Source: Bacillus sp. Y1
GTDB taxonomy: Bacteria; Bacillota; Bacilli; Bacillales; Cytobacillaceae
Length of the DNA: 64,000 nt
Direction: 5' to 3'
NCBI RefSeq assembly: GCF_003586445.1
Contig: NZ_CP030028.1
Span: forward strand, 3,982,501-4,046,500
In this document: one piece after another, positions 1 to 15,809 of the stretch
Layout of the letters: each line of letters opens with the position of its first letter
Position numbering within the stretch: the first letter of the stretch is position 1
Notes under the pieces: model-generated
Databases searched by the model: none
Seen by the model: only the letters and a program-made list of their open reading frames with translations
Told to the model about the DNA's origin: nothing
Position numbers and translations under genes: made by a program

Positions 1-313
1 ATTCTTCACTATTCATTGCCAGTGGTTTCTCGGAAACGACATGCTTTCCTGCTAATATAATCTCTTTATTAATCGCAAAGTGAAGGTGATTCGGGGTGCA
101 ATTATGGATAACCTGGATTTGGCTGTCTTTCAACATATCACGGTAATCACCATAGGCTTTCGAAATTCCAAGCTCCGCTGCTTTTTGGTCAGCGGCTTCT
201 TGACGGGTTTCCCCCAATGCTACTACTTCAACGAATCCAAGTCTTCGGATCGCTTCAATGTGAGTTGGCCCGATAAAACCGGTCCCGATAATACCAACTT
301 TTATCTTCTTCAC
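1..313 (-). CDS. Gfo/Idh/MocA family oxidoreductase, partial (N-terminal 104 residues)
   Basis: This is the N-terminal part of an NAD(P)-dependent sugar or cyclitol dehydrogenase; the rest lies beyond the left edge. The Rossmann motif GIIGTGFIG lies within the first 15 residues, and the family motif EKPLA (as GKHVVSEKPLAMN) is near residue 95. The start is a GTG at 313-311 preceded by AGGAGGA. It follows the ABC permease by about 210 bases on the same strand with no clear terminator between, so it is probably the last known gene of the sugar importer operon and may oxidise the imported substrate. The substrate cannot be read from this fragment. Confidence 0.85.
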   Translation of the reverse strand, partial: MKKIKVGIIGTGFIGPTHIEAIRRLGFVEVVALGETRQEAADQKAAELGISKAYGDYRDMLKDSQIQVIHNCTPNHLHFAINKEIILAGKHVVSEKPLAMNSEE

Positions 314-369
314 TTCTCTTCCTCCTGTTCGAAAAATCTACTCGTGCTGCATTTTGACTGTTTCGTTCT

Positions 370-452: not shown

Positions 453-525
453 TTCCACCAACTCGAGCTCGAATTCTACGGATAAATCATGAAATTCAAA
501 GGAATCACCATTTTTTTTCGTAAAC

Positions 526-1506
526 CTATCGCTTCATCGCTTTCTTACCGAATGCCACCGCCAAGATGATGATAATTCCTTTGATAATCATTTGCTGACT
601 GACATCCAGACCCATAATGATCAAACCATTATTAATCGTACCAATCATGAGGGAACCTACAATCGTTCCGATAATCGTTCCTACACCGCCGAACAAGCTA
701 GTACCACCAAGAATAACCGCTGCGATAACAGAAAGTTCATCGCCTTCACCGAAAGAAAAACGTCCGGCATTCATACGGCCTGCATAGAGAAGACCAGCTA
801 TCCCAGCCATTAAACCAGTTCCAAGGAAGACCATAAGCTTAATTTTCATTGTCTTAACGCCTGAAAATCTTGCTGCATTTTCATTACCGCCTGTTGCTAA
901 AACTTGACGGCCAAAAGAAGTTTTACGAAGCAATACATGAGCAATAATGGTAAAAACTAAAGTCCAGATTAGAAGTACCGGAACCGGGCCTATATCCCCA
1001 GATCCAAAGATAAAGTTGAAATTCGCATCTACGATCGGTACTGGCGCTGTGTCCGTAACCCACATGGCCGTACCTTTAACTGCTCCCATTGTTCCCAATG
1101 TTACAAGGAAAGAAGGAATGGCTACTTTTGTAACTAGCAAACCATTTATTAAACCCACCACAAGTCCTGTGGCTACACCGCCAATAAGTCCTCCGACAAT
1201 GCCATATCCGGCTTGTAGGGCCAGTGCACCTACCAGTGAAGAAAGGGCAGCAATGGAACCGACAGAAAGATCAATTTCACCTGTACTGATTACAAATGTC
1301 ATCGCCAAGGCCATTAAAGAAATCGTTGCTGTTTGTCTAACAATATTTAATAAGTTATCTGTTGATAAAAACCCTTCATCACTTAAGCTAAGAGAAAAGT
1401 AGATTAATACTCCTACGAAGGCGAAATAAACAATATAATTGCGCCATTCGAAACCTTTTAATCCCAATGTTGCTTGTTTTTGCAAATTAGAAACCTTGGA
1501 TTGCAT
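526..1506 (-). CDS. Ribose-type sugar ABC transporter permease
   Basis: This 326-residue integral membrane protein belongs to the RbsC/XylH/AraH permease family, which forms the transmembrane channel of carbohydrate importers. It has about ten hydrophobic segments, the family motif ISTGEIDLSVGSI near residues 60-72, and a conserved C-terminal glycine-rich stretch (VILGGTSLFGGVGTIIGT). The ATG start has a GAGGAGG ribosome site, and the gene overlaps the 3' end of the ATPase gene by 20 bases, which suggests translational coupling. It works with the ATPase and binding protein immediately upstream. The sugar is unknown. Confidence 0.93.
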   Translation of the reverse strand: MQSKVSNLQKQATLGLKGFEWRNYIVYFAFVGVLIYFSLSLSDEGFLSTDNLLNIVRQTATISLMALAMTFVISTGEIDLSVGSIAALSSLVGALALQAGYGIVGGLIGGVATGLVVGLINGLLVTKVAIPSFLVTLGTMGAVKGTAMWVTDTAPVPIVDANFNFIFGSGDIGPVPVLLIWTLVFTIIAHVLLRKTSFGRQVLATGGNENAARFSGVKTMKIKLMVFLGTGLMAGIAGLLYAGRMNAGRFSFGEGDELSVIAAVILGGTSLFGGVGTIIGTIVGSLMIGTINNGLIIMGLDVSQQMIIKGIIIILAVAFGKKAMKR

Positions 1507-2983
1507 ATTGTAGCTCCTCCTCTGATTTAATCTCCCTGCGCTTCATTTCCTTTTTAATTTTCCCATCATGCATAACGACCACACGGTCACTCAAGGCAAG
1601 CAGTTCCGGTAGTTCGGAAGAGATGACAAGGATAGCTTTGCCTGTTTCGGCCATGGCTCTAATAATCTCGATAATTTCCGTTTTTGCACCAATATCGACA
1701 CCAATTGTTGGTTCATCTAACATTAAGACAGTTGGATCATTCGCAAGCCACTTGGCAAGGACGATTTTTTGCTGATTGCCCCCCGATAACAATCTGGCTT
1801 GTTTAAAAATATGATCGGTTTTAATATTGAGCTTTCGTACAAATTCATTACTAATGTCATTGGATTTTTTATTATCAATAAACGTTCCTTTTTTCACCTT
1901 CGAAAGAATGGGTAGAATCATATTATCCTTGACGCTATGTTCAAGCACCAATCCTTGCATACGCCGATCCTCTGGAATCAGAGCAAGACCGGCATCGATC
2001 GCATGTCTAGGACTCTTTATCGTTTGCTTTTGCCCATCCACATAGATGTCTCCGTTCTCAATCGGGTCAATCCCGAACAGAGCTCGAACTAGTTCTGTTC
2101 TACCGCTTCCCATCAATCCGGCAATGCCGACGATTTCACCTGGCTGAATTTTAAGATTAATATTTTGAACCTTGCCAGCGCTTACGTTTCTTACCTCAAA
2201 GATCGGTGGCACGTCAGTCTCGTAGGAACGTTCCTTCCATTCAAACGCCTGGTCAAACTCCATACCGACAATATGTTGAATAACAGTATCAAGAGTCGTT
2301 TCACTGCAAGTTTCCGTTGTAATGTAACGGCCATCTCGTAAAATCGTGATTCGGTCACATATTTGAAAGATTTCATCCATCCGGTGAGAAATATAGATGA
2401 TGGAATAACCTTTTGCTTTCAATTTGTTAATAAAACCAAATAGCACTTCTGTTTCATTTTTCGTTAAGGAAGAGGTTGGCTCATCCATGATCAGTATTTT
2501 TGCCTCTTGCGATAGTGCTTTGGCGATTTCTGTCATTTGCCAATAGCCAACGCCCAAGTTTTGGACAATATCTGAAGGTTTAATATCTACGCCTAATTCT
2601 TCTAGCAGCTTTTCTGTTTTCTGCTCACAATCTTTATCATCTAAAAGTCCCATCCCTGTTTTCTTCTCACGAGTAAGAAAGATATTTTGGGCTACAGTAA
2701 GAGTTGGAATTAAACTAAACTCTTGGAAAATCATCGATATATTATTTTTTTGAGCCTCTTCATAGCTCTTAATGCTGACAGGCTTTCCTTCAATCAGAAT
2801 TTCGCCGCTATCGGCAGTATAAACGCCGGTAAGGATTTTCATTAACGTCGATTTTCCGGCACCATTTCCCCCCATCAAAGCGTGAACCTCACCTTTTTTG
2901 ACGGAGAAATTGACATCCTTCAGTACGGGAATCCCATTAAATGCTTTATTGACATTTTTCATTTCGAGAATAGGTTGATCCAT
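1487..2983 (-). CDS. Ribose-type sugar ABC transporter ATP-binding protein (double ATPase)
   Basis: This 498-residue cytoplasmic ATPase has two fused nucleotide-binding domains, as in RbsA, MglA and XylG. The first has a canonical Walker A (GGNGAGKST, about residues 39-47) and Walker B (ILIMDEPTS). The second has the degenerate Walker A typical of the family (GLMGSGRTE) and signature LSGGNQQK with Walker B VLMLDEPT. One oddity is a first-domain signature that reads LGVGYWQM instead of the usual LSVG(Q)QQM. It is the second gene of the operon, 60 bases after the binding-protein gene and separated from it by a strong hairpin. Confidence 0.93.
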   Translation of the reverse strand: MDQPILEMKNVNKAFNGIPVLKDVNFSVKKGEVHALMGGNGAGKSTLMKILTGVYTADSGEILIEGKPVSIKSYEEAQKNNISMIFQEFSLIPTLTVAQNIFLTREKKTGMGLLDDKDCEQKTEKLLEELGVDIKPSDIVQNLGVGYWQMTEIAKALSQEAKILIMDEPTSSLTKNETEVLFGFINKLKAKGYSIIYISHRMDEIFQICDRITILRDGRYITTETCSETTLDTVIQHIVGMEFDQAFEWKERSYETDVPPIFEVRNVSAGKVQNINLKIQPGEIVGIAGLMGSGRTELVRALFGIDPIENGDIYVDGQKQTIKSPRHAIDAGLALIPEDRRMQGLVLEHSVKDNMILPILSKVKKGTFIDNKKSNDISNEFVRKLNIKTDHIFKQARLLSGGNQQKIVLAKWLANDPTVLMLDEPTIGVDIGAKTEIIEIIRAMAETGKAILVISSELPELLALSDRVVVMHDGKIKKEMKRREIKSEEELQYAIQGF

Positions 2984-3004
2984 CTAAGTTCACCTTCTTT
3001 TCGT

Positions 3005-3034
3005 GATAGGGGCTGCTTACAAACAGCCCCTATC
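3005..3034 (-). promoter_or_regulatory. Intercistronic hairpin between binding-protein and ATPase genes
   Basis: A perfect inverted repeat, GATAGGGGCTG with CAGCCCCTATC around an 8-base loop, lies in the 60-base gap. On the transcribed minus strand it is followed by ACGAAAAG rather than a U-run, so it is more likely a 3'-end stabiliser or partial terminator that raises binding-protein expression over the ATPase and permease, as known for malE-malF. Confidence 0.7.
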
Positions 3035-3043
3035 GGATTGTAA

Positions 3044-4216
3044 TTATTTCATTGCATCTTGAACTGTTTTTGGAGCATCTGCCCCGTAGATAAGCTTCCA
3101 AGAATCCAATACATTTTCTTTTGTTACTTTAATCGATGGTGAAGCAACATAAGCAGGTGCTTCTTTTCCTAATAGGCCATAACCAGCGAGAATCGCTTGT
3201 GCTACACCCTGGTCATATGGCAACTGTGCTCCAAGTCCTTTTACAAGTCCATCCTGTGCAATCGAGATTGCTACGTTCGTTCCTAAGTCAACAGTTGTCA
3301 CAACTAAATCGTTTTTGCCAGCAGTACGGGCAGCTGCCATAACGCCTTCAGCCGGTACATCCCATGGGGCAAAGATTCCATCAAGGTCTCTATTTTTTGT
3401 AAGCATTGCAGAAGCTACTTTCTCAGCATCGTTTGGACCGGTAATACCGCCTTCTGCTACAATTTTAATATTTGGATATTTTTCTTTGATTCTTGCTTCG
3501 AATGCATCAGAGCGGTTTTTGGTTACGAAGAAGTTTACATCGTGATACACAATCCCAACTTTACCTTTTCCACCAAGTTTTTCAGCCATAATGTCGGCCG
3601 CTGTTGCGCCGTTACCCATGTTGTCACCGGATACAATACTAATGTAATCTTTTCCAGCAACAAGGCCTTCTGCCGCTCCATCCATGAATACTAACTTAAC
3701 CCCTTGTGCAATAGCCTTTTTATAAGCTGGTGCTGTGGATACTGCATCAACTGGAACAGAGATCATAATATCGGGTTTTTTCGCTAAAACGGTTTCAATA
3801 TCGTTTACTTGCTTTTCTGCTTTAAACTGTGCATCTGTAACGGCAACTACTTCGATTCCCATCTTCTTAAATGTATCTTGCATTGCACCTACTGCAGCAT
3901 TCATATAGTCAGTACCGGAGTAATGCATAACAATAGCTGCTTTATATTTTCCATCTTTAATCTTTTTAAGTTCTTCCTCATTTAATTGTAATGATTTTGC
4001 AGAAACAGCTTGTTCGCCATTTGGTCCTTTATCTTGTACTTCTAAATCAGGAATTGCTGGATTGATCGTTAATGGCCCTGATGCTGTTTCTGAATAGTTT
4101 TCATTCTTTTGTGTCTCTTCTTGTTCACCAGAAGTGGATTTATTACCACCACAACCGGTTAGGAATATGCCTAAAATGAATAATAGTAATACCGAAAGTG
4201 AAAAACTCTTTTTCAT
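3044..4216 (-). CDS. Sugar ABC transporter substrate-binding lipoprotein (RbsB family)
   Basis: This 390-residue protein binds the sugar outside the membrane and delivers it to the importer encoded downstream. It has a lipoprotein signal peptide with lipobox LTGC (Cys22), a low-complexity linker to about residue 60, then a type I periplasmic-binding fold (Peripla_BP_4 family) from about residue 75 to the end. From the GPNGEQ at residue 64 onward it matches the C-terminal domain of the kinase fusion at 6526-9090 almost without gaps and, by eye, at well over half of positions. It is the first gene of the operon. The promoter ahead of it is flanked by LacI-type operators. Confidence 0.93.
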   Translation of the reverse strand: MKKSFSLSVLLLFILGIFLTGCGGNKSTSGEQEETQKNENYSETASGPLTINPAIPDLEVQDKGPNGEQAVSAKSLQLNEEELKKIKDGKYKAAIVMHYSGTDYMNAAVGAMQDTFKKMGIEVVAVTDAQFKAEKQVNDIETVLAKKPDIMISVPVDAVSTAPAYKKAIAQGVKLVFMDGAAEGLVAGKDYISIVSGDNMGNGATAADIMAEKLGGKGKVGIVYHDVNFFVTKNRSDAFEARIKEKYPNIKIVAEGGITGPNDAEKVASAMLTKNRDLDGIFAPWDVPAEGVMAAARTAGKNDLVVTTVDLGTNVAISIAQDGLVKGLGAQLPYDQGVAQAILAGYGLLGKEAPAYVASPSIKVTKENVLDSWKLIYGADAPKTVQDAMK

Positions 4217-4265
4217 GTCATAACCCCCACAATGTTTGTTATTTACTTGAAGCTCGTTATTTTGT

Positions 4266-4309
4266 TGGCACCACCTTAAATCTTAAGTGTGGCACCACCT
4301 CCTTTTCAT
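4266..4309 (-). promoter_or_regulatory. Leader direct repeats with an orphan Shine-Dalgarno sequence
   Basis: An exact 11-base direct repeat, TGGCACCACCT on the plus strand, occurs at 4266-4276 and 4290-4300. The copies flank a small palindrome, CTTAAATCTTAAG. Read on the transcribed minus strand the distal copy is part of AAAAGGAGGTGGTG, a near-perfect anti-SD match at 4298-4309 with no gene behind it: the real start at 4216 has its own GGGGG site. It may bind the LytTR regulator or act as an mRNA-stabilising SD. Both readings are inference. Confidence 0.45.
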
Positions 4310-4336
4310 AAATTGAAAGTTTAGTAAATTTTTTCT

Positions 4337-4350
4337 AGTAATCATTTACA
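4337..4350. promoter_or_regulatory. LacI-type operator, downstream of the importer promoter
   Basis: AGTAATCATTTACA is an imperfect match to the palindrome TGTAANCGNTTACA used by LacI/CcpA-type proteins. It differs from the perfect copy at 5454-5467 at two positions. Its place just past the -10 fits repression by the adjacent LacI-family protein. Confidence 0.5.
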
Positions 4351-4357
4351 TTTTAGA

Positions 4358-4386
4358 AGTAGAATAGGAATCTCATGGACTTTCAA
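4358..4386 (-). promoter_or_regulatory. Predicted sigma-A promoter of the sugar importer operon
   Basis: On the minus strand a TTGAAA -35 (4386-4381) and a TCTACT -10 (4363-4358) are separated by 17 bases. A LacI-type operator lies directly upstream of the -35 (4391-4404) and another directly downstream of the -10 (4337-4350). Confidence 0.5.
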
Positions 4387-4390
4387 AAAA

Positions 4391-4404
4391 TGTAAAGGAT
4401 TACA
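4391..4404. promoter_or_regulatory. LacI-type operator, upstream of the importer promoter
   Basis: TGTAAAGGATTACA has symmetric TGTAA/TTACA arms and sits between the lacI stop codon and the -35 of the importer operon. With the site at 4337 it brackets the promoter. Confidence 0.55.
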
Positions 4405-4421
4405 TTTATTATTAAAAATTT

Positions 4422-5420
4422 TTAAATAGTTCTGACAGACTCCCTTACAACCAACTGGTCAGCTAAGATAATTTGCTCGCGTTTGACTTGCTCTTTGTTG
4501 ATGAGCTTCATCAGTAATTCCATCGCGTTTTCACCAATTTCGAATGCTGGCTGTGCAATCGTTGTAAGAGCCGGTTCAAATATTGAGGAGAATTTTAGAT
4601 TATCAAACCCTAGAACAGAAATATCCTCAGGAACCTTAAGACCCTTTGATTTAATCGACTTAATCACTCCCATTGCCATATCATCGCTTGCAGCGAATAT
4701 CGCTGTTGGGAGTTGACCAAGAGCGAAAAACTTCATCATAAGATTAAAACCGCTATCAAATGAGAAGTCACCCTCCTGGACTAACACGGGGTCAACGATA
4801 AGGTTTTTCCTTGCCATTGCCTGATAAAATCCTTTGAGGCGGTCTCGGCTCAATACGATATCGAGGGGTCCGGTGATGCACCCAATTCTTTCGTGTCCCA
4901 AATCGATTAAATATTCCGTTGCCTTTCTAGCACCACTGATGTTATCAATCGAAACAGTTGGGATACTGGAGCCTTCAATATATTCACATGCCAGCACCAC
5001 CGGAAAACTTCGTGCCACCTCTTCAACGGCTGCTGCATCCATTCTGGCGGTTAATAAAACCATTCCATCTGCTTTTTTTTGCTGCAGGATGTTTAAATAC
5101 CCCTTTTCTCGTTCTACATCATTGCCTGTATCACCGAGTAAAACCTGATATCCTTTTGCAACAGCGACAGCTTCAATCCCCCTTAACACCTTTGAAAAAA
5201 AGGGATTTGTAATGTCAGGTACAACAACTAGGATCGTCTTCGTTTCGAGCCTTCTTAGCTGGCGCGCTAAGAGATTAGGCTGATAATTCAATGCTTCAAT
5301 CGCCTTTAACACTTTTTCCGTCGTCGTTTCCCTTACTGTTTCAGGCTTTGTTAAGACTCGAGATACTGTTGCAGTAGATACATTAGCCTTTTTTGCTACA
5401 TCGACAATCCCAACCATCAT
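4422..5420 (-). CDS. LacI/GalR-family transcriptional regulator
   Basis: This 332-residue repressor has the N-terminal LacI helix-turn-helix (VDVAKKANVSTATVSRVL, starting near residue 5), the hinge helix ending NLLARQLRR, and a sugar-binding core domain from about residue 62 related to periplasmic binding proteins. It lies directly upstream of the importer operon on the same strand. TGTAA-type palindromes flank both its own gene and the importer promoter, so autoregulation and control of the importer by the imported sugar are likely. The first two codons are both ATG; either could start translation. Confidence 0.92.
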   Translation of the reverse strand: MMVGIVDVAKKANVSTATVSRVLTKPETVRETTTEKVLKAIEALNYQPNLLARQLRRLETKTILVVVPDITNPFFSKVLRGIEAVAVAKGYQVLLGDTGNDVEREKGYLNILQQKKADGMVLLTARMDAAAVEEVARSFPVVLACEYIEGSSIPTVSIDNISGARKATEYLIDLGHERIGCITGPLDIVLSRDRLKGFYQAMARKNLIVDPVLVQEGDFSFDSGFNLMMKFFALGQLPTAIFAASDDMAMGVIKSIKSKGLKVPEDISVLGFDNLKFSSIFEPALTTIAQPAFEIGENAMELLMKLINKEQVKREQIILADQLVVRESVRTI

Positions 5421-5453
5421 TGTTTTTTTCCTTTCCTGTTTCTATACTCGGAT

Positions 5454-5467
5454 TGTAATCGTTTACA
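5454..5467. promoter_or_regulatory. Perfect LacI/CcpA-type operator upstream of lacI-family gene
   Basis: TGTAATCGTTTACA matches the cre consensus TGWAANCGNTNWCA at every position and is also nearly palindromic. It lies 34 bases before the regulator's start codon. CcpA and the neighbouring LacI paralogue are both candidates to bind it; the sequence alone does not decide between them. Confidence 0.6.
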
Positions 5468-5567
5468 TTCCTTTCGTCTAATCGCCTTTAGACATGCTTT
5501 TTGTCCATTTGGCTGCTAGTTTCTTTCATTCGGAAAGCCCTTTCATTCATTCGAACAAAAAAAGCAT

Positions 5568-5614
5568 TAAAAAAAAAAAAATAAGACCCAGTAATTATTC
5601 ATTACTGAGTCTTA
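5568..5614 (-). terminator. Rho-independent terminator of the LytTR regulator gene
   Basis: On the minus strand an AAGACTCAGTAAT / ATTACTGGGTCTT hairpin is followed by a run of about 13 U residues. It lies immediately after the regulator stop codon and separates it from the lacI-family gene. Confidence 0.85.
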
Positions 5615-5618
5615 CTTT

Positions 5619-6335
5619 TTACAACGATTTACATTTTTGTAATTCAACTAGCTTATGCTTAGAGACCCTAGCTGTTTCTTCGTAATTTTTAAAATGAGCT
5701 ATATACGTTTGGCCGGCCACTTCAATTCTCGTTAAATACTGCAAATTGATAATAAAAGAACGATGGGAAACAACAAATCGCGAATCAAGGAGCTCTTCGA
5801 GATTGGTTAAAGCCTCATTTATTTCCATTTTTTTATCAATCGTATGAATGACCGACTTTCGGTCTGCTTTTTCAATAAAAATAATCTCGTCTAACGAAAT
5901 AAAGGAATATTGATTTTGTTGCTTAATCATTAAATCCTTTTTGACAGGAGCAGATGACGGAACCGTACCGTTTTTCTTCGAAAAGGCTGCTGCCCGCTCT
6001 AAAGCGGAATAAAGCCTGTCTCGCTCAATCGGTTTCACAATGTAATCGATTGCATTCACCCCAAAGGCTTCCAGCGCGTATTCATCATGGCCTGTGATAA
6101 AAATAACCTGCAAGGTTGGCAGAATTTTTTTACACGATTTAACAGCTTCCATTCCGTTCAATAAAGGCATGTTAATATCAACTAACACGATGTCGGGCTT
6201 TTCCATCATTACCTTGTTGATTAAATCCTCACCATTTACTGCTTCTCCGACAATTTGATAGTTCGGAACAGATTTAATCAGATGCTTTAACAATTTTATA
6301 GATGGTGCATTGTCCTCTGCAATCAAAACTTTCAT
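5619..6335 (-). CDS. LytTR-family response regulator
   Basis: This 238-residue cytoplasmic transcription factor has an N-terminal receiver domain (acidic residues EDN at 7-9, phospho-acceptor Asp53 in VDINMP, Lys101 in IVKP) and a C-terminal LytTR DNA-binding domain from about residue 135 (ISLDEIIFIEKADR ... VVSHRSFIINLQYL). It is transcribed divergently from the hybrid kinase fusion across a 190-base gap that contains a perfect inverted repeat. LytTR regulators usually pair with LytS-type membrane kinases; none is present here, so the fusion kinase is the obvious candidate partner. Its targets are unknown, with the importer operon the likeliest. Confidence 0.9.
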   Translation of the reverse strand: MKVLIAEDNAPSIKLLKHLIKSVPNYQIVGEAVNGEDLINKVMMEKPDIVLVDINMPLLNGMEAVKSCKKILPTLQVIFITGHDEYALEAFGVNAIDYIVKPIERDRLYSALERAAAFSKKNGTVPSSAPVKKDLMIKQQNQYSFISLDEIIFIEKADRKSVIHTIDKKMEINEALTNLEELLDSRFVVSHRSFIINLQYLTRIEVAGQTYIAHFKNYEETARVSKHKLVELQKCKSL

Positions 6336-6379
6336 AAATCATCCCTCATGTAATTAGGTTTGGTTTAAACTATATCATA

Positions 6380-6405
6380 TAACATATTAACTAGATAATA
6401 TGTTA
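6380..6405. promoter_or_regulatory. Perfect inverted repeat between regulator and kinase genes
   Basis: Ten-base arms TAACATATTA and TAATATGTTA surround a 6-base spacer (ACTAGA) in the shared divergent promoter region. The symmetry and place suggest an operator controlling one or both divergent genes. It does not resemble the TGTAA palindromes of the LacI-type protein, and no U-run follows it. Confidence 0.5.
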
Positions 6406-6525
6406 AAAAATGAAAAAAATGGATTCCTATTTTTTGTTAGTAGGCACTCTAACTGCATAGAGTATAAGACAGTACATCCGGCTTAGGTAGTTTTTTTCGA
6501 ATCGAAAGAGAATGGTGGAGAAAAA

Positions 6526-9090
6526 ATGGAAATCTTTTATAAAGATAATTTATATAAGGAAGTTCTTCGGACCATGTCCGAGTGTGTAATTATTCTTGAA
6601 AAGTCGGGGAAAATGGTTGCACTAAATGAAAATGTAGAAAAAATACTGGGGATTAAAACAGAGTTCTTGACTGAATCCAGTTTGATGCAACTAGAATATA
6701 TAAATGAAGACGGTTCACCGTTAGCCTATTCTCAGTTACCAGGAATAATAACACTTAAGGATGGTTTTCCCTTCCATGATTTCATATTAGGTATTAACGA
6801 CAGGAATAAGGAACCTAAATGGATCTCAGTCAATTCAACGCCTCTTAAAATTTGTGATAAAGAAGAACTGGCTGCCCTTGTTACCATTTCTGATATCACC
6901 GAACGAAAAAACATGGAAAATGCCTTAATTCAAGCTAAAGAAGAGGCAGAAAAAGCAAATATGGCGAAATCCGACTTTCTTTCAAAAATGAGTCATGAAC
7001 TCCGTACACCATTGAATGGAATCCTTGGTTTTGCACAGCTATTAGAAATGGAAGAAACCTTAAATGATGATCAGCGTGATTTTGTCCAAGAGATTTTAAG
7101 TGGTGGGAGACATTTACTAAGTTTAATTAATGATATTTTAGATTTATCTAGAATAGAATCGGGCCAGATAAAAGTGTCGATCGAAGAGATTGATCTTCTG
7201 ACGATTATCAATGAATGTATCAATATCGTGCAGCCGCAGGCCAACAAGAAGAGTATCAGTATACATAACCAATTGGATCAATGGCAAAACATATTTGTTC
7301 TTGCCGATCCCATTCGTCTTAAACAAATCTTTCTTAATCTTCTCGATAATGCGATCAAATATAATCGGGAAGGCGGAAAAGTTATGATTTTCTCTTATTT
7401 AAAAGGAAACGAGCAGATCATTCATGTTGCGGATACAGGGATCGGACTTTCAGCTGAAGAATATCAAAAGGTATTTGTTCCCTTTTACCGAATAGAAGGG
7501 ACACAGGAAGAAGGTACAGGTATTGGATTGTCTTTAGTAAAACAGCTCGTCCAGCTAATGGGGGGCAAAATTAGTGTAACGAGCCAAAAAGGAATAGGTA
7601 GTGATTTTTTCTTTAGTCTGCCACTTCCAAATGAATTTAAGCCTGTCATGAGATGGGGTGAAGAGGTTGAACTCACTGAGAAAAATATCCGTAAGGAAGA
7701 TGACTATCGTTTATTATATATTGAAGATAACGAGTCGAACTTGAACTTAGTAAGGAAAATCATGAAATCTCAGCTTTCTTATACACTTTTATCAGCTCGT
7801 ACAGGAAAAGAAGGATTAGAAATGGCTGCGAATGAAAAAGTGGACTTGGTTCTGCTTGATCTAAACCTTCCCGATATCCATGGCTACGAAATATTTGATA
7901 GGTTAAAATCAATAAAACAAACGAAAGATATTGCAGTAATTGCTGTAAGTGCCAATGCGCTTCCGCAGGACATTCAACATACATTAGACAAGGGGTTTGA
8001 TAATTATGTAACAAAACCCTTTAATGTAAGAGAGTTTTTGACCATCATAAGAGAAACGCTGAATAGTACGATTAACCAAAATATTCCCATAGATAAAATT
8101 TTAAGCACAGGGCCGCATGAAGAGGTAGCTGTTTCAGCCAAAACACTCCAGTTATCTTTAAAAGACCTGAAAAAGCTTAAGGAAAAGAATTATAAGGCAG
8201 CTATTGCGATGCATTATACAGATAATGACTTTTCAACTGCCATCATCCGTGGTTTGAAAGATACTTTTGAAAAAATGGGTATTGAAGTTGTGGCTGTTAC
8301 GGATGCACAATTTAAGCCTGAAAAACAAATTTCAGATATCGACATTATCATGGCTAAAAAACCAGATGTTATCGTTAGTTTACCGGTTGATCCAGTGGCA
8401 ACTGCTCCCGCTTTTAAAAAGGCTGCAGAAGCAGGAATCAAACTAATTTTTATGGATAGCATGCCTGAAGAATTAGAATTTGGCAAAGATTATGTGAGCG
8501 TTGTTACATCTGACAACTATGGAAATGGTATATTTGCAGCCGAGATTATGGGTAAAGAACTTAAAGGAAAAGGTAATATTGGTGTTATTTTCCACAACGT
8601 TGATTTCTTTGTAAATAATCAACGTGTAGAAGCATTCGAAACTACAATTAAAGAAAAATATCCAAATATTAAAATTGTTGTACGTACTGGAATTACCACC
8701 CCCAACGATGCGGAAAAAGCTGTCTCTGGTATGTTAGCAAAAAATCCAGATTTAGATGGTATTTTTGCTATTTGGGATGAACCCGCGGAAGGAGCACTAG
8801 CTGCAGCACGTAAAGCAGGGAAAACAGATATAGTCATTACGACGGTTGATTTGGGAAGTAATGCGGCATATCAAATTGCTTCTGGAGGAAATATTAAAGG
8901 TCTTGGAGCGCAATTACCTTATGAAAATGGAGTTGCACAAGCAATTATTACGGGATATTCATTACTTGGTAAGGAAGTAGCACCTTTCTATGTTGTACCA
9001 GCGATGAAAGTAACAAAAGAAAATATCTTAAAGGTTTGGAAACTGGCTTATCGTCAAGATCCTCCTAATGCCATTCAAAAGTACTTTTAA
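6526..9090 (+). CDS. PAS-histidine kinase-receiver-sugar-binding protein fusion
   Basis: This 854-residue protein has four parts: a PAS domain (about 10-128), a histidine kinase core with H-box FLSKMSHELRTPLNG (His157) and ATP-lid motifs (N-box Asn271/Asn275, DTGIGL at 303, GTGIGLSL at 330), a receiver (EDN at 400-402, Asp445, Lys497), and from about 529 to the end a whole type I sugar-binding fold. No signal peptide or membrane segment is visible, so all domains should be cytoplasmic. The last domain is a close paralogue of the lipoprotein at 3044-4216 without its secretion signal and linker. It could sense imported sugar and tune the kinase. No Hpt domain is present, so the route to the LytTR regulator is open. 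The reading frame is continuous, with no sign of an artefactual join. Confidence 0.9.
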   Translation: MEIFYKDNLYKEVLRTMSECVIILEKSGKMVALNENVEKILGIKTEFLTESSLMQLEYINEDGSPLAYSQLPGIITLKDGFPFHDFILGINDRNKEPKWISVNSTPLKICDKEELAALVTISDITERKNMENALIQAKEEAEKANMAKSDFLSKMSHELRTPLNGILGFAQLLEMEETLNDDQRDFVQEILSGGRHLLSLINDILDLSRIESGQIKVSIEEIDLLTIINECINIVQPQANKKSISIHNQLDQWQNIFVLADPIRLKQIFLNLLDNAIKYNREGGKVMIFSYLKGNEQIIHVADTGIGLSAEEYQKVFVPFYRIEGTQEEGTGIGLSLVKQLVQLMGGKISVTSQKGIGSDFFFSLPLPNEFKPVMRWGEEVELTEKNIRKEDDYRLLYIEDNESNLNLVRKIMKSQLSYTLLSARTGKEGLEMAANEKVDLVLLDLNLPDIHGYEIFDRLKSIKQTKDIAVIAVSANALPQDIQHTLDKGFDNYVTKPFNVREFLTIIRETLNSTINQNIPIDKILSTGPHEEVAVSAKTLQLSLKDLKKLKEKNYKAAIAMHYTDNDFSTAIIRGLKDTFEKMGIEVVAVTDAQFKPEKQISDIDIIMAKKPDVIVSLPVDPVATAPAFKKAAEAGIKLIFMDSMPEELEFGKDYVSVVTSDNYGNGIFAAEIMGKELKGKGNIGVIFHNVDFFVNNQRVEAFETTIKEKYPNIKIVVRTGITTPNDAEKAVSGMLAKNPDLDGIFAIWDEPAEGALAAARKAGKTDIVITTVDLGSNAAYQIASGGNIKGLGAQLPYENGVAQAIITGYSLLGKEVAPFYVVPAMKVTKENILKVWKLAYRQDPPNAIQKYF

Positions 9091-9128
9091 TTAGCTTGAT
9101 TACGTATCAACCCCAATATTACCGTATA

Positions 9129-9168
9129 AAAGGAGAGGTCGGATTCATGTTGAAACCTGCCTCTTTTT
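9129..9168 (+). terminator. Probable terminator of the kinase fusion gene
   Basis: An imperfect hairpin, AGAGGTCGG with CCTGCCTCT, is followed by TTTTT about 40 bases after the stop codon. Two mismatches lie in the stem. Confidence 0.55.
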
Positions 9169-9469
9169 AGTAGAATAGACCTCTTATTTACGACCTCTTT
9201 TTCTCAGATTTCAGGCTTCATGAACAACTAACTCATAGAATTGTTTTCACTAAAAACCTTCTACAAAATACAGGTGGTGACAACGGTTTTCTTATTAAGC
9301 AGACCTGCCCCGTTTAGATAATCGTCTTACCATGGGAGTACAATAACTTCAACAAAAAGCCTCAATACCTGCTGGGATCTTCGTACCCTGTACTTGAAGG
9401 GATAATCGGAATATAAAAATCTGCTCTGGGTAAAGTAGCAATAGGACTGTTTGAAGGAGGCTATTTTTA
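9169..9469. other. 300-base gap without a recognised gene
   Basis: I find no open frame of useful length and no known structured RNA. The only supported element is the ribosome site GAAGGAGG just before the TerC-family start. Some TerC-family genes have a manganese riboswitch leader, but its conserved loops were not found here. Confidence 0.5.
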
Positions 9470-10240
9470 ATGGATACAGCCCTTATACTAGAATATCTAT
9501 GGGTATTAATCGTATTAATTGGTTTAGAGGGTATTTTGGCTGCAGATAACGCATTGGTTATTGCAATAATGGTTAAACATTTGCCGGAAGAAAGGAGAAA
9601 AAAAGCACTCTTCTATGGACTGGCAGGTGCATTTATTTTTAGGTTCGGTTCACTTTTTATTATTTCTTTTTTAGTTGATGTGTGGCAGGTACAGGCAATC
9701 GGTGCCTTGTACTTATTGCTTATCTCTATTACCCACATTATTAAGAAATTTGTATTAAGAAAAGGAGAGAATAAGAAGACAGGTGTTGAAAAACAAGGAT
9801 CCGGCTTTTGGATGACAGTATTAAAAGTAGAATTAGCGGATTTAGCATTCGCTGTGGATGCTATACTCGCTGCAGTTGCATTTGCTGTTGCATTGCCCGA
9901 GACTGGATTGCCCCGAATTGGTGGTTTAGATGGAGGACAATTTTTGGTCATTCTTGCAGGCGGAATAATTGGACTTGTTATTATGCGTTTTGCAGCTAAT
10001 TTCTTTGTTGGAATTTTGCACAAAAAGCCGGGTCTCGAAACCGCAGCCTTTCTTATTGTAGGTTGGGTTGGTGTTAAATTAGCTGTATATACTTTGTCTC
10101 ATCCTGACTTAGCATATTTGCCTAAAGGATTCGCAAAATCTTTTGAATGGAAACTAACATTTTGGGCAGTGTTGTTACTCATTGCTATACTAGGATGGTT
10201 TCTATCGAAAGAAAAAAAGGTTGAAGAAGAGACATCTTAG
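9470..10240 (+). CDS. TerC-family integral membrane protein (probable metal exporter)
   Basis: This 256-residue protein has about seven membrane spans and the TerC/YkoY family motifs: EGILAADNALV near residues 20-30 and ELADLAFAVDAILAA in the middle, whose acidic residues lie inside the membrane. Bacillus relatives (YceF, YkoY) are implicated in manganese export and metal loading of secreted proteins. The start follows a GAAGGAGG site. It stands alone, with a terminator 33 bases downstream. Metal specificity is family inference. Confidence 0.88.
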   Translation: MDTALILEYLWVLIVLIGLEGILAADNALVIAIMVKHLPEERRKKALFYGLAGAFIFRFGSLFIISFLVDVWQVQAIGALYLLLISITHIIKKFVLRKGENKKTGVEKQGSGFWMTVLKVELADLAFAVDAILAAVAFAVALPETGLPRIGGLDGGQFLVILAGGIIGLVIMRFAANFFVGILHKKPGLETAAFLIVGWVGVKLAVYTLSHPDLAYLPKGFAKSFEWKLTFWAVLLLIAILGWFLSKEKKVEEETS

Positions 10241-10272
10241 AATTTTTCCGTTATTAAAACATCTTGCTTAAA

Positions 10273-10298
10273 AATCACACTTTAAGAGTGATTTTTTC
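10273..10298 (+). terminator. Terminator of the TerC-family gene
   Basis: AAAATCAC pairs with GTGATTTT and is followed by a T-run. Confidence 0.8.
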
Positions 10299-10465
10299 AT
10301 TAAACAACGTTATAGACAAATTACAAATGTTACAAAACAATACTTATTCAACTTGGATAATTTATTGATAAGAGCCCCCAATCTACGATTCAACCTGATA
10401 AATCTATCCATACTCAAAAAGAATTGTTAGATTTAATAGATAGTTATTTATAACAATCGAAACTA

Positions 10466-10513
10466 CACAAAAAGCCGACTCTTTCCTTCTTACTGGAAAA
10501 GAGTCGGCTTTTA
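10466..10513 (-). terminator. Strong hairpin, probably bidirectional terminator
   Basis: AAAAGCCGACTCTTTCC is complementary to the downstream GGAAAAGAGTCGGCTTTT. It lies 36 bases past the end of the decayed gntP gene, whose original terminator it probably was. The 308-base gap 10241-10548 holds nothing else I can support. Confidence 0.8.
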
Positions 10514-10548
10514 TTGATTTTTAAGTAAGAAGAGGCTTAATTATCTTC

Positions 10549-11030
10549 CTAAATAAACACATCTATTATTAAAATAAATCCTAATCCAACCACAGCTGTA
10601 ATGGAGGAAAGTACACTATAAGTAGCAAAGGTCTCTTTCATTGTCATTCCCATATACTCTTTTACAATCCAGAAGGCTGCATCATTCACATGAGAGCCCA
10701 TACAACTTCCGACACCTTTTGCCAGGGAGACCAATACTAAATTCACGTCAGGAGTTTGATTTAAAATAGGGATAACTAAACCAGCAGTTGATAAAGTAGC
10801 AACTGTACCAGAGCCTAGTGCAACACGTAAAATGGCTGCTACTGCCCATGCGAGTAAAACTGGTGAAATGGCTCTCCCTTCAAATAGTTGAGCAATATCC
10901 GCCTACTCCACCATCAATAAGAACTTGCTTAAAGGCTCCCCCTCCACCAATGATAAGAAGTAGCATTCCTAAGGCATTGATAGACTTTCCACATGATCCC
11001 ATTAATGTCTTTCGTTTTTTTATTCTAAAT
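10549..11030 (-). pseudogene. GntP-family gluconate permease remnant, 5' truncated and frameshifted
   Basis: Conceptual translation on the minus strand gives the last third of a GntP/gluconate:H+ symporter. It reads [20 protein letters not shown]..., then [20 protein letters not shown]..., and ends with VGSCMGSHVNDAAFWIVKEY and a final membrane span. A one-base insertion near 10898-10904, where VG should be followed by DIAQL, breaks the frame; only the last 65 codons remain open. The N-terminal two thirds are missing, and the remnant begins at the stop codon of the upstream phosphofructokinase gene, so a deletion has joined the two. Confidence 0.8.
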
Positions 11031-11032
11031 AA

Positions 11033-11992
11033 CTACATAGATAAACTAAGTGCTAATTGATACAATGACATGTCAATTTCGTGTGTTTCTGTCGCAGCTT
11101 GTTCAAATGTGATAGAAGTGATTTTACCATTCTTTACACTAACCATACTTCCGTGATCTCCACTAAGGAGGATATCCACAGCTTTTGCCCCCATTTGACT
11201 ACCTATCATCCGATCATAGGCAGTAGGCGTCCCACCACGTTGTAAGAATCCTAGTACAATCACCCTTGCATCTAGTTGTATGTGGTCTTGTAACTCTCTT
11301 TTTATATCCTCAGCACTGCACACACCCTCTGCAACAATGATGATACAATCCTTTTGTCCACGATCCCTTGCTGTATGAATACGTGCAATAACATCTTTAA
11401 TATCGTAAGATGCCTCCGGAATAATAATTGATTCTGCTTCTGAACAAAGTCCAGCCCATAAGGCAATGTCCCCCGCACCACGTCCCATAACCTCCACAAT
11501 TGAAGTTTTTTCGTGTGAATAAGCGGTATCACGAATTTTATCAATCCCATCAATTGCAGTACTTACTGCTGTATTAAAACCTATTGAATAATCTGTACCT
11601 GATATATCATTATCGATGGTTCCAGGTATCCCCACAACCGGTAGTCCCTTTTCACCTAGTTTCAACGCACCTTGAAAAGATCCATCTCCACCTATTACAA
11701 CAAGTCCATCAATATTTAAATGCTTTAAATTTTGTATTGCTTCATGTTGCCATTCATCCAATTTAAATCGCTCACTTCTTGATGTACGTAGTATCGTTCC
11801 CCCACGCTGTATGATACCATCAACAAACTTTTGATTCATCTGAACGATATTTCCTTCCAACAGACCCTCATAACCATTGTAAACCCCGAATACTTCTAAC
11901 CCCTTATCGATCCCTCTCAAAACTACCGCCCGAATGGCAGCATTCATTCCAGGAGAATCCCCTCCGCTAGTTAGTACAGCAATTCTTCTCAT
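11033..11992 (-). CDS. pfkA: ATP-dependent 6-phosphofructokinase
   Basis: This 319-residue enzyme phosphorylates fructose 6-phosphate to fructose 1,6-bisphosphate. The ATP site includes TSGGDSPGMNAA (8-19) and GGDGS (101-105). Gly104 and Gly124 mark the ATP rather than pyrophosphate type. The catalytic loop GTIDNDI carries Asp127 and Asp129. The full length is normal. Chromosomal pfkA in Bacillus normally lies with accDA and pyk; here it stands alone beside a decayed gluconate permease, so this may be a second copy. The last codons are at the deletion join with the gntP remnant, but the protein looks complete. Confidence 0.93.
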   Translation of the reverse strand: MRRIAVLTSGGDSPGMNAAIRAVVLRGIDKGLEVFGVYNGYEGLLEGNIVQMNQKFVDGIIQRGGTILRTSRSERFKLDEWQHEAIQNLKHLNIDGLVVIGGDGSFQGALKLGEKGLPVVGIPGTIDNDISGTDYSIGFNTAVSTAIDGIDKIRDTAYSHEKTSIVEVMGRGAGDIALWAGLCSEAESIIIPEASYDIKDVIARIHTARDRGQKDCIIIVAEGVCSAEDIKRELQDHIQLDARVIVLGFLQRGGTPTAYDRMIGSQMGAKAVDILLSGDHGSMVSVKNGKITSITFEQAATETHEIDMSLYQLALSLSM

Positions 11993-12157
11993 AATTCCCC
12001 TTCTTTCATTATGTAATTTTTAAAGCGGTTTTAGTGTCGTGCCTACTTAGTTCATCTCTAAGTATGAAAAAATCAAAATACTTCTTTCTATTTGTCTACC
12101 AAGTATTTTATTATTTAATATATTTTTCTTCTAAGTTGGTGTCAACTAACTATAATT

Positions 12158-12187
12158 AAAACCTCTTCCATTTTTGGAAGAGGCTCT
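12158..12187 (-). terminator. Terminator of the decayed tpx gene
   Basis: GCCTCTTCC and GGAAGAGG form a stem followed by TTTTAATT on the minus strand, 5 bases past the tpx stop codon. Confidence 0.8.
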
Positions 12188-12191
12188 TACT

Positions 12192-12601
12192 TTATAATAA
12201 TTCCTTAACCGCTTCAAGTGCTGCTTCATGGTTTGGATGGTTAGTGCCTTCACTTACATACTCAACATATGTAACTTTATCTTTTGCGTCAACAACAAAC
12301 ATGGCACGTGCTAAAAGACGAGTTTCTTCCATAAATACTCCGTATGCCTTCCCAAATGAGAGATCCTTATGGTCTGAATATGTTTTTACATGTTCAAGGC
12401 CGCTTGCACCGCACCATCTTTTCTGTGCAAAAGGAAGGTCCACACTTATTTTTAGTACTTCGACAATGTCAAGTTTTGAAACTACTTCGTAAAATTTCAA
12501 AGTTTGTGCATTACATATTTCTGCTGAAAGAAGATACCTTTGATTTTTTCTGACATATATTCTAAAATTCTCTTTGAGTCATCACATATGGCAATCTTCA
12601 T
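12192..12601 (-). pseudogene. Chimeric remnant: 5' end of an AgrA/LytTR-type regulator joined to the 3' half of thiol peroxidase
   Basis: The minus strand starts with a good ribosome site (AAGGGG) and an ATG at 12601 encoding MKIAICDDSKRILEYMSEKI, which is the N-terminus of an AgrA-like receiver. After about 25 codons the sequence becomes, in another frame, the thiol peroxidase Tpx from AEICNAQTLKFYEVVS onward, keeping its Cys and the motifs SVDLPFAQKRWCGA and SEGTNHPNHEAALEA. The Tpx half lacks its first ~90 residues. The ATG at 12500 that opens the longest frame is internal to Tpx. One deletion that fused two once separate genes explains this. Confidence 0.75.
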
Positions 12602-13052
12602 ATAAATTACCCCTTAAGAAATCGTTTATGTTGCAATTTTTTTACCATTCTACCATATGCTTTGATAGTCTTCCATAAATACAATTTACTATAATATTAA
12701 AACTCTACTTTTTAACCACCTAAAAATCCCCATTTCCTTAATACTAACGATATACTCGTCTCCAATATTCGTGAAAATATATCCAATACTTTAACAACAA
12801 ACTTATTAAGGCAAAATTTAAAGGCATGAGCTCACTACATACCGAATGCATACTATAGATTAATAAGAACTATAGAGAAAGCCTGCCATCACTATCACAA
12901 CTTAATTTTAAAGTAGAATGAAGCAAGTTAAAATAAGCTATTTTTATTTCATCTATATGTTATGATATCTTATCCTATTTTTTATACTAGATTCATAAAT
13001 ATAGATGTACCATTAATTATCTACTATTATAGTTAAGATTGGGGTGTCATCT
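12602..13052. other. 450-base gap without a recognised gene
   Basis: AT-rich sequence with stops in all frames. It must contain the promoter of the methyltransferase gene downstream; TATGATATC-type -10 candidates occur near 12960-12975 but no convincing -35 stands out. I see no structured RNA or repeats. Confidence 0.4.
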
Positions 13053-13832
13053 ATGGATAAAGATCAAAAAGCAAAGGTTCAAGAACAGTTTTCAAGAAGT
13101 GCTGAAGAATATGTTACCAGTGAAACTCATGCAAAAGGAAATGATCTCACAGCTATTGTCCAATGGTTACAGCCTTCTCAACAATGGACAGTGTTAGATG
13201 TAGCAACAGGTGGAGGACACGTAGTCAAGACACTTTCCCCTTATGTAAAACAAATTTTCGCCACAGACCTCACACCTCAAATGCTATCTACAGCTCAAAA
13301 GCATCTTGAAACTAGTTGTAAAAATGTCTCTTATGTCGTAGCTGATGCCGAATCTTTACCCTTTTTAAATGAAACATTTGATGCGGTTACTTGTCGTATT
13401 GCCGCACATCATTTTCCACACCCTCAAGACTTTATAGCCGAAGTATCACGAGTACTCAAACCAGGAAATAGATTTTTACTCATTGATAACATCTCTCCTG
13501 CAGATATTAAGTTGGATGGCTTCATTAACACTCTAGAAAAACTTAGAGATGAAAGCCATTTAAGATGTTACTCTATTAGTGAATGGAAAGCATGGTTTGA
13601 AGAACAGGGTTTGACGATTATTAAATCGGAGAAGCGGAGAAAAAAACTTGAATTTCCAGTATGGGTCCAAAGAACAACTCAATCGGATAAACAAGTAAAA
13701 GCAGTCGTTGGTTATGTACTTGGAGCAGATCAAGAAAAGTTGGATTATTATTCAGTGTTGATAAACGATGGGGAAATTAAATCCATTGAAATTGATGAGT
13801 GGATGGTTATGGTGGAAAAGAATATGAATTAG
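13053..13832 (+). CDS. Class I SAM-dependent methyltransferase (Methyltransf_11/UbiE-like)
   Basis: This 259-residue cytoplasmic enzyme has the SAM-binding motif I VLDVATGGGHV (about residues 50-60), the acidic residue ending strand 2 (ATDLTPQML), and motif VVADAESLPFLNETFD followed by CRIAAHHFPHPQDFIAEVSRVLKPG. These fit the UbiE/YcgJ group. The start at 13053 is chosen because GGGGTG at 13041-13046 is well placed; a GTG at 13044 would put the site inside the gene. It is a single gene with a shared terminator. The substrate is unknown. Confidence 0.85.
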   Translation: MDKDQKAKVQEQFSRSAEEYVTSETHAKGNDLTAIVQWLQPSQQWTVLDVATGGGHVVKTLSPYVKQIFATDLTPQMLSTAQKHLETSCKNVSYVVADAESLPFLNETFDAVTCRIAAHHFPHPQDFIAEVSRVLKPGNRFLLIDNISPADIKLDGFINTLEKLRDESHLRCYSISEWKAWFEEQGLTIIKSEKRRKKLEFPVWVQRTTQSDKQVKAVVGYVLGADQEKLDYYSVLINDGEIKSIEIDEWMVMVEKNMN

Positions 13833-13872
13833 ATAATACACTAAAACACTTTTAGTTTGCATGGCGTAAAAC

Positions 13873-13903
13873 AAAAAGACAAGGAAAGATCCCTGTCTTT
13901 TAA
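13873..13903. terminator. Bidirectional terminator between convergent genes
   Basis: AAAAGACAAGG pairs with CCCTGTCTTTT between the methyltransferase and the NlpC/P60 gene. A-run and T-run flanks serve both directions. Confidence 0.8.
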
Positions 13904-13907
13904 TCTA

Positions 13908-15107
13908 TTAATGAATAACTCTCATAACTCTACCATTAAACGTATTTGCCCAATATCCACTCGACATATTAGCAATGGCTACACCTGTTGAGCTTTGCGA
14001 TCCGATAAATTTGCCACCGCCGATATAAATTCCAACATGTCCATCCTGTTTGTATGTATTAAAGAATACCATATCACCAGGACGCATCTCATTTACAGAT
14101 ACAGGTGTACCCGTATTTTTTAAAGTATCCGTGCTAGCACCAACACGAACACCAGCCTGTGAAAATGCCCAAGAGACAAATCCAGAACAGTCAAAACGTC
14201 CATTCGCGATGTCAGAGGCTGTTCTTCCACCACCAAATACATAGACTGAATTCCCAATATATTTATTGCCTGCATTTATTACAGTCGAAATAGAACCAGA
14301 TGAGACTGCTGTATTTGAAACAGGTATTGAATTAGAGTTGTTAACTGAAGTTCCTTTACTTGTCCCAGTTTGTGATTTCGGTGAGACAGAAACCGCTGTT
14401 ATCGCAGCCTCCGCAGCTCTTTGTAATTCTGCTTTCTGCTCTTGAAGGCTTGAAATTTCTGCTTTACTATCATTTTCTTGGTTTACTAACTGTGCTCTTA
14501 AAGCCTCATTGTTTGCCTTTTGCTCAGCAATTTGAGCTTGCATTCCCTCTAGTTCAACCTTCATACTGTTCAGGTCGTTTAGCTTTTGCTCGACTTCCTT
14601 GTATTTCTCTTGTACTTCCTTTCTATCCGCTTCATGCGCTTCTATCATTTCCCGGTCAGCATCGAGTATTGTTGCAACTACTCCAACACGGTCAATAAAA
14701 TCACCAAAACTTTTTGAACCAAATACTACATCGAAATAACTTAACTGACCACCGCTAGCTTGATACGAAACAGCACGGGCTTTCAAAGTTTCATTACGGG
14801 CCGTAATTCGTTCTTCAATCTCGGAAATTACTTTGTTTAGTTGGTCAATTTCAGCCTGATATTCAACAATTTGGGCATTTGTAGATTCAATTTTAGCGCT
14901 GTTGTCAGCAATAGCTTGTTCATTTTTTTGTATTTGTACTTCTACTTCCGAACGCTGTGCTTGTAAACTACTAAGCTGTTGTTGAGCGCTTACAATATTG
15001 CTTTGAATATTTTGAATGGATTCGGCATTCACTGATGAAACAGTAAGTAAGCTACTAAATCCTACTGTAAATGTTGTAATAATTGTAATTAATGAAGTTT
15101 TCTTCAA
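13908..15107 (-). CDS. Secreted coiled-coil NlpC/P60 peptidoglycan endopeptidase (CwlO-like)
   Basis: This 399-residue exported hydrolase probably cuts D-Glu to diaminopimelate bonds in cell-wall peptides. It has a signal peptide ending SSVNA, a long coiled coil (about 28-240, rich in Q, E, K and L heptads), a Ser/Thr linker, and a C-terminal NlpC/P60 domain from about 280 with nucleophile Cys in RFDCSGFVSWAF and His in DGHVGIYIG. The TTG at 15107 is chosen as start because GGGAGGA precedes it and it begins the signal peptide LKKTSLITII; the ATG 11 codons earlier has no such site. The layout matches B. subtilis CwlO. Confidence 0.9.
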   Translation of the reverse strand: MKKTSLITIITTFTVGFSSLLTVSSVNAESIQNIQSNIVSAQQQLSSLQAQRSEVEVQIQKNEQAIADNSAKIESTNAQIVEYQAEIDQLNKVISEIEERITARNETLKARAVSYQASGGQLSYFDVVFGSKSFGDFIDRVGVVATILDADREMIEAHEADRKEVQEKYKEVEQKLNDLNSMKVELEGMQAQIAEQKANNEALRAQLVNQENDSKAEISSLQEQKAELQRAAEAAITAVSVSPKSQTGTSKGTSVNNSNSIPVSNTAVSSGSISTVINAGNKYIGNSVYVFGGGRTASDIANGRFDCSGFVSWAFSQAGVRVGASTDTLKNTGTPVSVNEMRPGDMVFFNTYKQDGHVGIYIGGGKFIGSQSSTGVAIANMSSGYWANTFNGRVMRVIH

Positions 15108-15530
15108 TTTAGGATCCTCCCTGCTTCTACGCAGCGACACAATTTATATGTATAATTAGCAATTCGACAAATACCTATGATATTAGTATTATATCATCAA
15201 AATCTGACAATAAAGATTACAAATATATTTCAAATATCACTTAATTCAACATGATTTTTAAAAATATAATAGAATTCTAGTTCTGGACGACTGTTACCCC
15301 TGTATGGTTGGAACCTGTTTCATACGAAGAATATGAGGTTGTAACTAAGTTACTTTTAAAATATGAATCTAAGAAAATGACAAAGCATACAAAGAAAAAG
15401 GCATTAATCCCTCTGGATCAATACCTAGATTATCCAATTTAACGAATAAGGTTGAGTTTAAATTAGCTGTTTTATAGAGTGAGATAAAACCATCTAAATC
15501 GTAGCCCAGTCCCGAACCCAGCAAAAGTAA

Positions 15531-15719: not shown

Positions 15720-15736
15720 TGAAACCAATATAATTA

Positions 15737-15772: not shown

Positions 15773-15809
15773 TGTTAACTATACTATCTAAGTTAATTTT
15801 AGCGTTGCC

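Follow-up and report, generated by a model that had tools for sequence, protein, structure and literature searches.

Gene structure and domain order

Sugar-binding proteins are known as partners of histidine kinases on the outside of the cell. A gene of Bacillus sp. Y1 raises the question of whether such a protein can also form the C-terminal end of a kinase without any visible export signal and, if so, what it does there. The gene (6526..9090, + strand; 854 aa) lies in a 64,000-nucleotide stretch of DNA, hereafter the window, from a genome that consists of a single contig of 5.03 Mb. The frame opens with ATG and has 0 internal stops, and Pfam recognizes along it, in this order, PAS, HisKA, HATPase, receiver and Peripla_BP_4 domains. 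The PAS domain (residues 16-128; 6571..6909) matches the PAS_4 model at 24.9 bits, barely above the cut-off of 23.1. It is followed by HisKA (residues 147-213; 6964..7164), with the phospho-acceptor His157 (6994-6996) within FLSKMSHELRTPLNG, by HATPase_c (residues 261-368; 7306..7629), and by a receiver (Response_reg; residues 397-508; 7714..8049) whose Asp445 (7858-7860) falls within VLLDLNLP. Behind the receiver come a linker and lead that appear to be retained with the kinase (residues 513-566; 8062..8223), and an exchangeable binding core (residues 567-854; 8224..9087). The Peripla_BP_4 match itself covers residues 559-802 at 163 bits.

An earlier reading of the stretch, made from sequence only, had described one frame joining PAS, HisKA/HATPase (His157), receiver (Asp445) and a complete RbsB-like fold, and the frame check, Pfam and a fold match all agree with that description. 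It had placed the start of the RbsB-like part at about residue 529. The full domain is indeed present, but homology to free binding proteins opens earlier, at about residues 515-525 and inside their mature N-terminal lead, while the fold begins later, at about residue 555. Judged by its motifs, the protein is a hybrid histidine kinase, with the phospho-acceptor His, the N and G boxes and the Asp of a same-chain receiver all present. Databases and gene-finders label it merely as a substrate-binding protein. Among the 25 of 162 NCBIfam matches listed, no model exceeded its cut-off for the kinase, and HTH_LacI was absent from it in the Pfam scan. An Rfam search of window positions 1-16000 at gathering scores returned 0 matches.

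Distribution and conservation

Five other public loci (L009-L013) encode the fused form, 75-94% identical to the query across residues 1-854; in a sixth (L014) the match is confined to the kinase part. The sequence-only reading had proposed a search for the HisKA-HATPase-REC-Peripla_BP_4 architecture. Searching the binding region against proteins of similar length (8000 candidates scored) gave 83 matches, among them 55 clusters that combine HisKA, HATPase, receiver and binding domain, and one partial kinase (P0043). The rest comprised 23 ABC-ATPase/binding-domain fusions, two proteins that include Gfo/Idh parts, a tandem binding protein and a single odd chimera. The fused kinase thus belongs to a conserved Bacillales family rather than being a singleton.

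At the level of genomes, the fused kinase was found in 17 of 193 members of the same family, including the source genome, in open frames of 845-886 aa. The binding-protein family (E <= 1e-80) was present in 22 of these 193 genomes, 17 of which carry the fused form, and 16 of the 17 kinase genomes, all but G151, have a free relative no more than 20 kb from the kinase on its contig. With a query spanning the junction, 9 of 397 genomes sampled from the order (source genome included) proved to carry the fusion; among 398 genomes sampled from the phylum, the source genome alone did. On present sampling, the fused kinase is a feature of the order Bacillales. Recurrence over the full length in five other loci, and in 55 clusters and 17/193 genomes, excludes that the join at residues 515-535, where the sequence-only reading had allowed for a frameshift, is an artefact of a frameshift or of assembly.

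Altogether, 78 fused sequences were gathered, of which 69 were used for residue counts after removal of 9 exact duplicates. His157, Asn275, Asp303, Gly305, Gly330 and Gly332 are each found in 68 of the 69, the remaining sequence being partial. In the receiver, Asp445 is present in 68/69, and Glu400, Asp401, Ser475 and Lys497 in 69/69. A close relative, the kinase of G187 (P0003; L055:16140-18626), carries an in-frame deletion of 26 receiver residues that takes out Asp445, making it a natural receiver mutant; this loss counts against the signalling route proposed below.

Predicted cellular location

No signal peptide or membrane span is visible in the kinase by hydropathy (peak 19-residue Kyte-Doolittle mean of 1.21), and a pattern search detected a lipobox in 0 of 69 fused sequences. 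The binding-domain search passed 1923 sequences, of which 120 were listed and checked by pattern: 116 have a lipobox, three others have a Met-Gly-Cys variant, and P0165 is a kinase fragment. In the free lipoproteins, homology to the kinase starts directly after the signal and spacer. This flat hydropathy and the lipobox count (0/69 against 116/120) uphold the earlier proposal of a protein that lacks both signal peptide and membrane span and keeps its binding domain in the cytosol. An exported or membrane location was ruled out by hydropathy and, because export signal and lipobox are absent, the kinase is soluble and its binding domain cytosolic as far as sequence tells. The same absence led us to reject the class of transport binding proteins for the kinase, although it shares the Peripla_BP_4 family and type I fold. 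Among relatives, P0009 and G177 show an upstream stretch of 1.8, yet have an internal start and no lipobox. A single hydropathy stretch of 2.19 at residue 746 of P0047, within the binding domain, counts against a cytosolic sensor.

Genomic neighbourhood

Divergent from the kinase gene, at a distance of 190 bp, lies a gene for a LytTR response regulator of 238 aa (Response_reg and LytTR; 5619..6335, - strand). It is followed on the same strand by genes for a LacI-family regulator (4422..5420; Pfam), a free lipoprotein sugar-binding protein (3044..4216) that is 60% identical to the kinase's own domain, and the ATPase (1487..2983) and permease (526..1506) of a CUT2-type sugar ABC transporter, both assigned by Pfam and NCBIfam. 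At the edge of the window is the 5' end of a Gfo/Idh/MocA oxidoreductase gene (1..313, - strand) that continues beyond it, a candidate LgdC by size and place whose score with the NCBIfam LevoglcsnDh model, 197 bits, is below the cut-off of 650.

A LytTR response regulator adjoins the kinase in all 18 distinct loci (17 kinase genomes and the separate contig L009; four further rows with duplicate DNA were left out). Its gene is divergent and 142-256 bp away in 17 of these loci, and on the same strand, 23 bp downstream, in G092. It is usually followed by LacI, free binding-protein, ATPase, permease, Gfo/Idh and TIM-barrel genes, except that in G151 a different Peripla_BP_4 protein takes the place of the free binding protein. 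The adjacent LytTR regulator is likely the target, and output partner, of the kinase. Against this stand the facts that LytTR regulators usually partner LytS-type kinases and that G066 has the LytTR gene and no kinase.

Two further observations concern the layout of the locus. In G147 (L070), the kinase, LytTR, LacI and binding-protein genes are kept while other transport genes replace the importer and catabolic genes; from their layout after the binding protein, these presumably resemble a tricarboxylate (TTT) system. In the window, an 11-nt direct repeat, TGGCACCACCT, occurs at 4266-4300, upstream of the free binding-protein gene, with its copies 24 bp apart. Such a repeat pair (<=1 mismatch) was found in only 7 of 21 loci, and may possibly be an operator.

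Candidate ligand

Anhydrosugars arise from burning plant matter. About 15 kb from the kinase, the locus encodes a levoglucosan dehydrogenase (LgdA; NF052479, 750 bits against a cut-off of 650), the nearest solved relative of which is 6a3f; a sister entry of that structure, 6A3I, is named levoglucosan dehydrogenase (PMC10066097). The dehydrogenase is found above cut-off in 21 of the 193 genomes, of which 15 (out of 17) have the kinase and 6 (out of 176) lack it, an association (Fisher 8e-16) whose significance is inflated by kinship of the genomes. Of the 15 genomes with both genes, G138 has them on different contigs; in the other 14 they share a contig and are at most 50 kb apart. Two kinase genomes, G147 and G151, have no levoglucosan dehydrogenase above cut-off, which counts against the sensing of an anhydrosugar.

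The Y1 locus encodes candidates for LgdB1, LgdB2 and LgdC that are consistent with them in size and Pfam content: two TIM-barrel proteins, of 274 and 335 aa, and one Gfo/Idh protein of 392 aa. In Bacillus smithii, lgdA, lgdB1, lgdB2 and lgdC occur with LacI and an ABC importer (PMC7676230), and LytTR is among the transcription-factor clusters reported around lgdA (PMC10066097). The same dehydrogenase has a binding protein of the family as its neighbour on plasmids of Metabacillus, Klebsiella and Agrobacterium, with identities to the kinase's domain of 65, 61 and 53%, respectively; the Metabacillus plasmid also has a second binding protein, away from the dehydrogenase, that is closer to the kinase's domain (69%). 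The ligand of the kinase is likely an anhydrosugar (levoglucosan or a relative) or another substrate of a 3-keto pathway, rather than ribose.

Binding domain and proposed mechanism

A predicted structure, one of the checks that the sequence-only reading had proposed, shows a full type I binding fold, that of ribose-binding protein, at about residues 555-847, with a fold match to 2ioy. The packing of the domains against each other is not readable from the kinase model, given its pTM of 0.47. Similarity places the domain in the family of the neighbouring importer's lipoprotein, and the nearest free protein among the 120 of 1923 matches listed is 79% identical to it.

We lean towards a reading in which the soluble hybrid kinase senses, in the cytosol, an imported anhydrosugar or one of its relatives, and signals via its receiver to the LytTR regulator. 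An imported sugar (levoglucosan, a related anhydrosugar or another 3-keto pathway substrate) would close the binding domain, and the closed domain would shift the adjacent receiver on the kinase core. This shift would gate the flow of phosphate from His157 to the LytTR regulator, whose changed phosphorylation would in turn adjust the importer and catabolic genes. A regulatory role of the receiver would fit its position behind the kinase and the lack of an HPt domain on the chain, as described for RsbK of Bacillus cereus (PMC4574943).

Alternatively, the binding domain could be a docking or dimerization module that does not sense sugar, with PAS as the true sensor, although we consider this unlikely. 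The query does have a PAS domain, and some of the sugar-contact positions, which are those of RbsB, vary among the fused proteins (N567 in 52/68, N664 in 65/68, and D644 in 62/68 with Glu in the rest). However, R700, W750, D775 and Q796 are invariant in 68/68 fused sequences and the same as in free members, so that the domain does not lack ligand-binding residues, as the sequence-only reading had considered it might. In addition, the pocket columns of type A kinases (the query's group, see below) are more conserved than random core sets (0.012), and the core has been swapped for another that has an intact pocket. In type B kinases (0.127) and in free proteins (0.54), the pocket shows no clear excess of conservation over random core columns, which counts against the sensor reading.

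Exchange of the binding core

In a binding-domain tree, the kinases fall in two groups, A (29 rows, including the query) and B (39 rows). Group A cores are nested within free lipoproteins, their sister being eight free proteins, several of them from the same loci; this nesting is indirect evidence for a direction from free to fused. The kinase parts cut across the A/B split: G158 and P0032 cluster with type A kinases yet carry type B cores, and the kinase part of G158 is 90% identical to type A kinases. A single clade of type A kinases was rejected by the kinase data (p-AU 0.0034, 53 rows), with G158 as the strongly supported case, and a single clade of all fused cores by the binding-domain data (p-AU 2e-5, 65 rows), both p-values being weakened by the definition of the groups after the first tree had been seen. 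Eight of nine kinase-shared diagnostic positions are at or before residue 565, and 46 of 47 positions common to type A and free kin but not type B are at or after residue 569; these positions put the exchange junction near residues 566-568.

The pocket differs between the groups as well. Residue 569 is Trp in 39/39 type B and Phe in 28/29 type A kinases, and residue 774 is Val in 29/29 type A and Ile in 27/39 type B kinases. In a comparison of 19 rows, the four binding proteins that adjoin a levoglucosan dehydrogenase have Trp569 and Ile774, as in type B, while the query has the letters of free type A proteins. Since the pocket of the query is unlike that of the dehydrogenase-adjoining proteins, its ligand need not be levoglucosan itself. 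The query lineage has a core with the pocket of a second group of transporter binding proteins, and may thus recognize another ligand than kinases of the other core type. From these trees and residues we conclude that kinases and transporter binding proteins have exchanged binding cores, and that the exchange altered the pocket. Between G138 and G177 (L065/L068 region), dS is 0.6-0.96 in PAS, kinase core and receiver and 0.20 in the binding core; this low core value is another sign of exchange, and the core seems mobile between strains too. By eye, core type showed no association with which catabolic genes were present.

That related kinases acquired the domain in two separate fusions, in place of one fusion followed by core exchange, would be in line with the wide separation of the fused-core groups in binding-protein trees. 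This scenario appears quite improbable, as lead residues 534-565 are kinase-specific, common to both groups and missing from free proteins, and as it is further opposed by the type B core of G158 on a type A-like kinase part, the rejection of one type A clade by the kinase data, and the contrast in dS between G138 and G177. We are evenly divided on a broader proposal, namely that the core is a plug-in cytosolic sugar sensor, swapped by recombination with the genes for surface lipoproteins of the same-locus importer with the breakpoint fixed immediately ahead of the first ligand-contact loop, and that such swaps would retarget intracellular sensing to another substrate of the locus.

Across 14 ortholog pairs, dN/dS was 0.12-0.29 in the binding core and 0.08-0.30 in HisKA and HATPase combined. 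Purifying selection acts on the binding core; the linker is quick to evolve in places (dN/dS of 1.1 in 2/14 pairs). That the domain is a functionless passenger of a chance fusion, or an assembly or frameshift artefact, is a reading to which the unassigned function and the bare database name of substrate-binding protein lend themselves, but it is very improbable and was rejected on independent genomes (five other public loci at full length, 17/193 genomes) and on this selection.

Comparison with known systems

LacI-family repressors use a periplasmic-binding fold as a cytosolic sugar sensor; they are HTH transcription factors, whereas the output of the Y1 protein would be a kinase. In the Bacteroides hybrid two-component system BT1754, the binding domain is N-terminal, with a membrane span present, and is periplasmic according to the entry title, whereas in the Y1 kinase it is predicted to be cytosolic and lies C-terminal to the receiver. 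CUT2 sugar-binding proteins (RbsB and the putative levoglucosan binders of lgd clusters) share the Peripla_BP_4 family and fold, with 53-69% identity for the lgd plasmid loci, but the kinase's domain differs from them in having neither signal peptide nor lipobox, in standing behind a receiver and in its kinase-specific lead.

RsbK of Bacillus cereus and VirA likewise combine a kinase core with a C-terminal receiver that has an intact Asp. The receivers of both are reported to be inhibitory and RsbK to be a transmembrane sensor (PMC4574943); the excerpted account does not describe a ligand-binding domain behind the receiver, which the Y1 kinase has. Described lgd clusters resemble the Y1 locus in having levoglucosan dehydrogenase, LacI, binding protein, ATPase, permease, TIM barrels and Gfo/Idh, but the figure legend for the Bacillus smithii cluster lists no kinase (PMC7676230), and the excerpted survey of lgdA neighbours names LytTR and no histidine kinase (PMC10066097). 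More generally, binding-protein folds have been noted as sensor domains of cytosolic signalling proteins (PMC9602780).

The individual domains are ordinary; the order, the soluble state and the exchange with lipoproteins appear to be the new part. The sequence-only reading knew of no soluble fusion in this order, and searches of the open-access literature, which covers few subscription journals, likewise brought up no account of the PAS-HisKA-HATPase-REC-binding-domain order, of its solubility or of the lipoprotein exchange. Evolution has here brought a binding protein indoors, behind the receiver of a kinase. Two questions follow: by what means a ligand domain placed after a receiver could act on the kinase, and whether a new core after residue 566 is all that is needed to transfer sensor specificity. 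The kinase is a candidate anhydrosugar sensor, where the literature searched shows transcription-factor genes near the cluster and no studied sensor, and it may offer a natural template for modular sugar biosensors.

Related fusions

In 23 clusters (P0058-P0060, P0062-P0080, P0083), a sugar-importer ATPase is joined to a domain of the binding-protein family found in the kinases. No signal peptide was found between the two parts in P0058, P0059, P0060 and P0078, and in the binding-domain tree, the 13 ATPase fusions included group in a single clade separate from the kinases. These fusions represent a second entry of the family into the cytosol, perhaps with a role in feedback on import. ATPase and binding-protein genes that sit together on a Mesorhizobium plasmid were considered as their source and rejected, being separate genes in another order.

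Other relatives depart from these architectures. In G066, whose genome has no fused kinase, a LacI repressor carries, in addition to the sugar domain of its own, a second, C-terminal Peripla_BP_4 domain (residues 386-644; L071:2871-4952, - strand). P0210, P0212, P0234 and P0257 are kinases without a binding-domain Pfam match (P0212 and P0234 scanned) that bear the JGI name "ribose transport system substrate-binding protein", an annotation probably transferred from the fused family. P0001 (782 aa) is a lipoprotein with tandem, near-identical copies of the binding domain.
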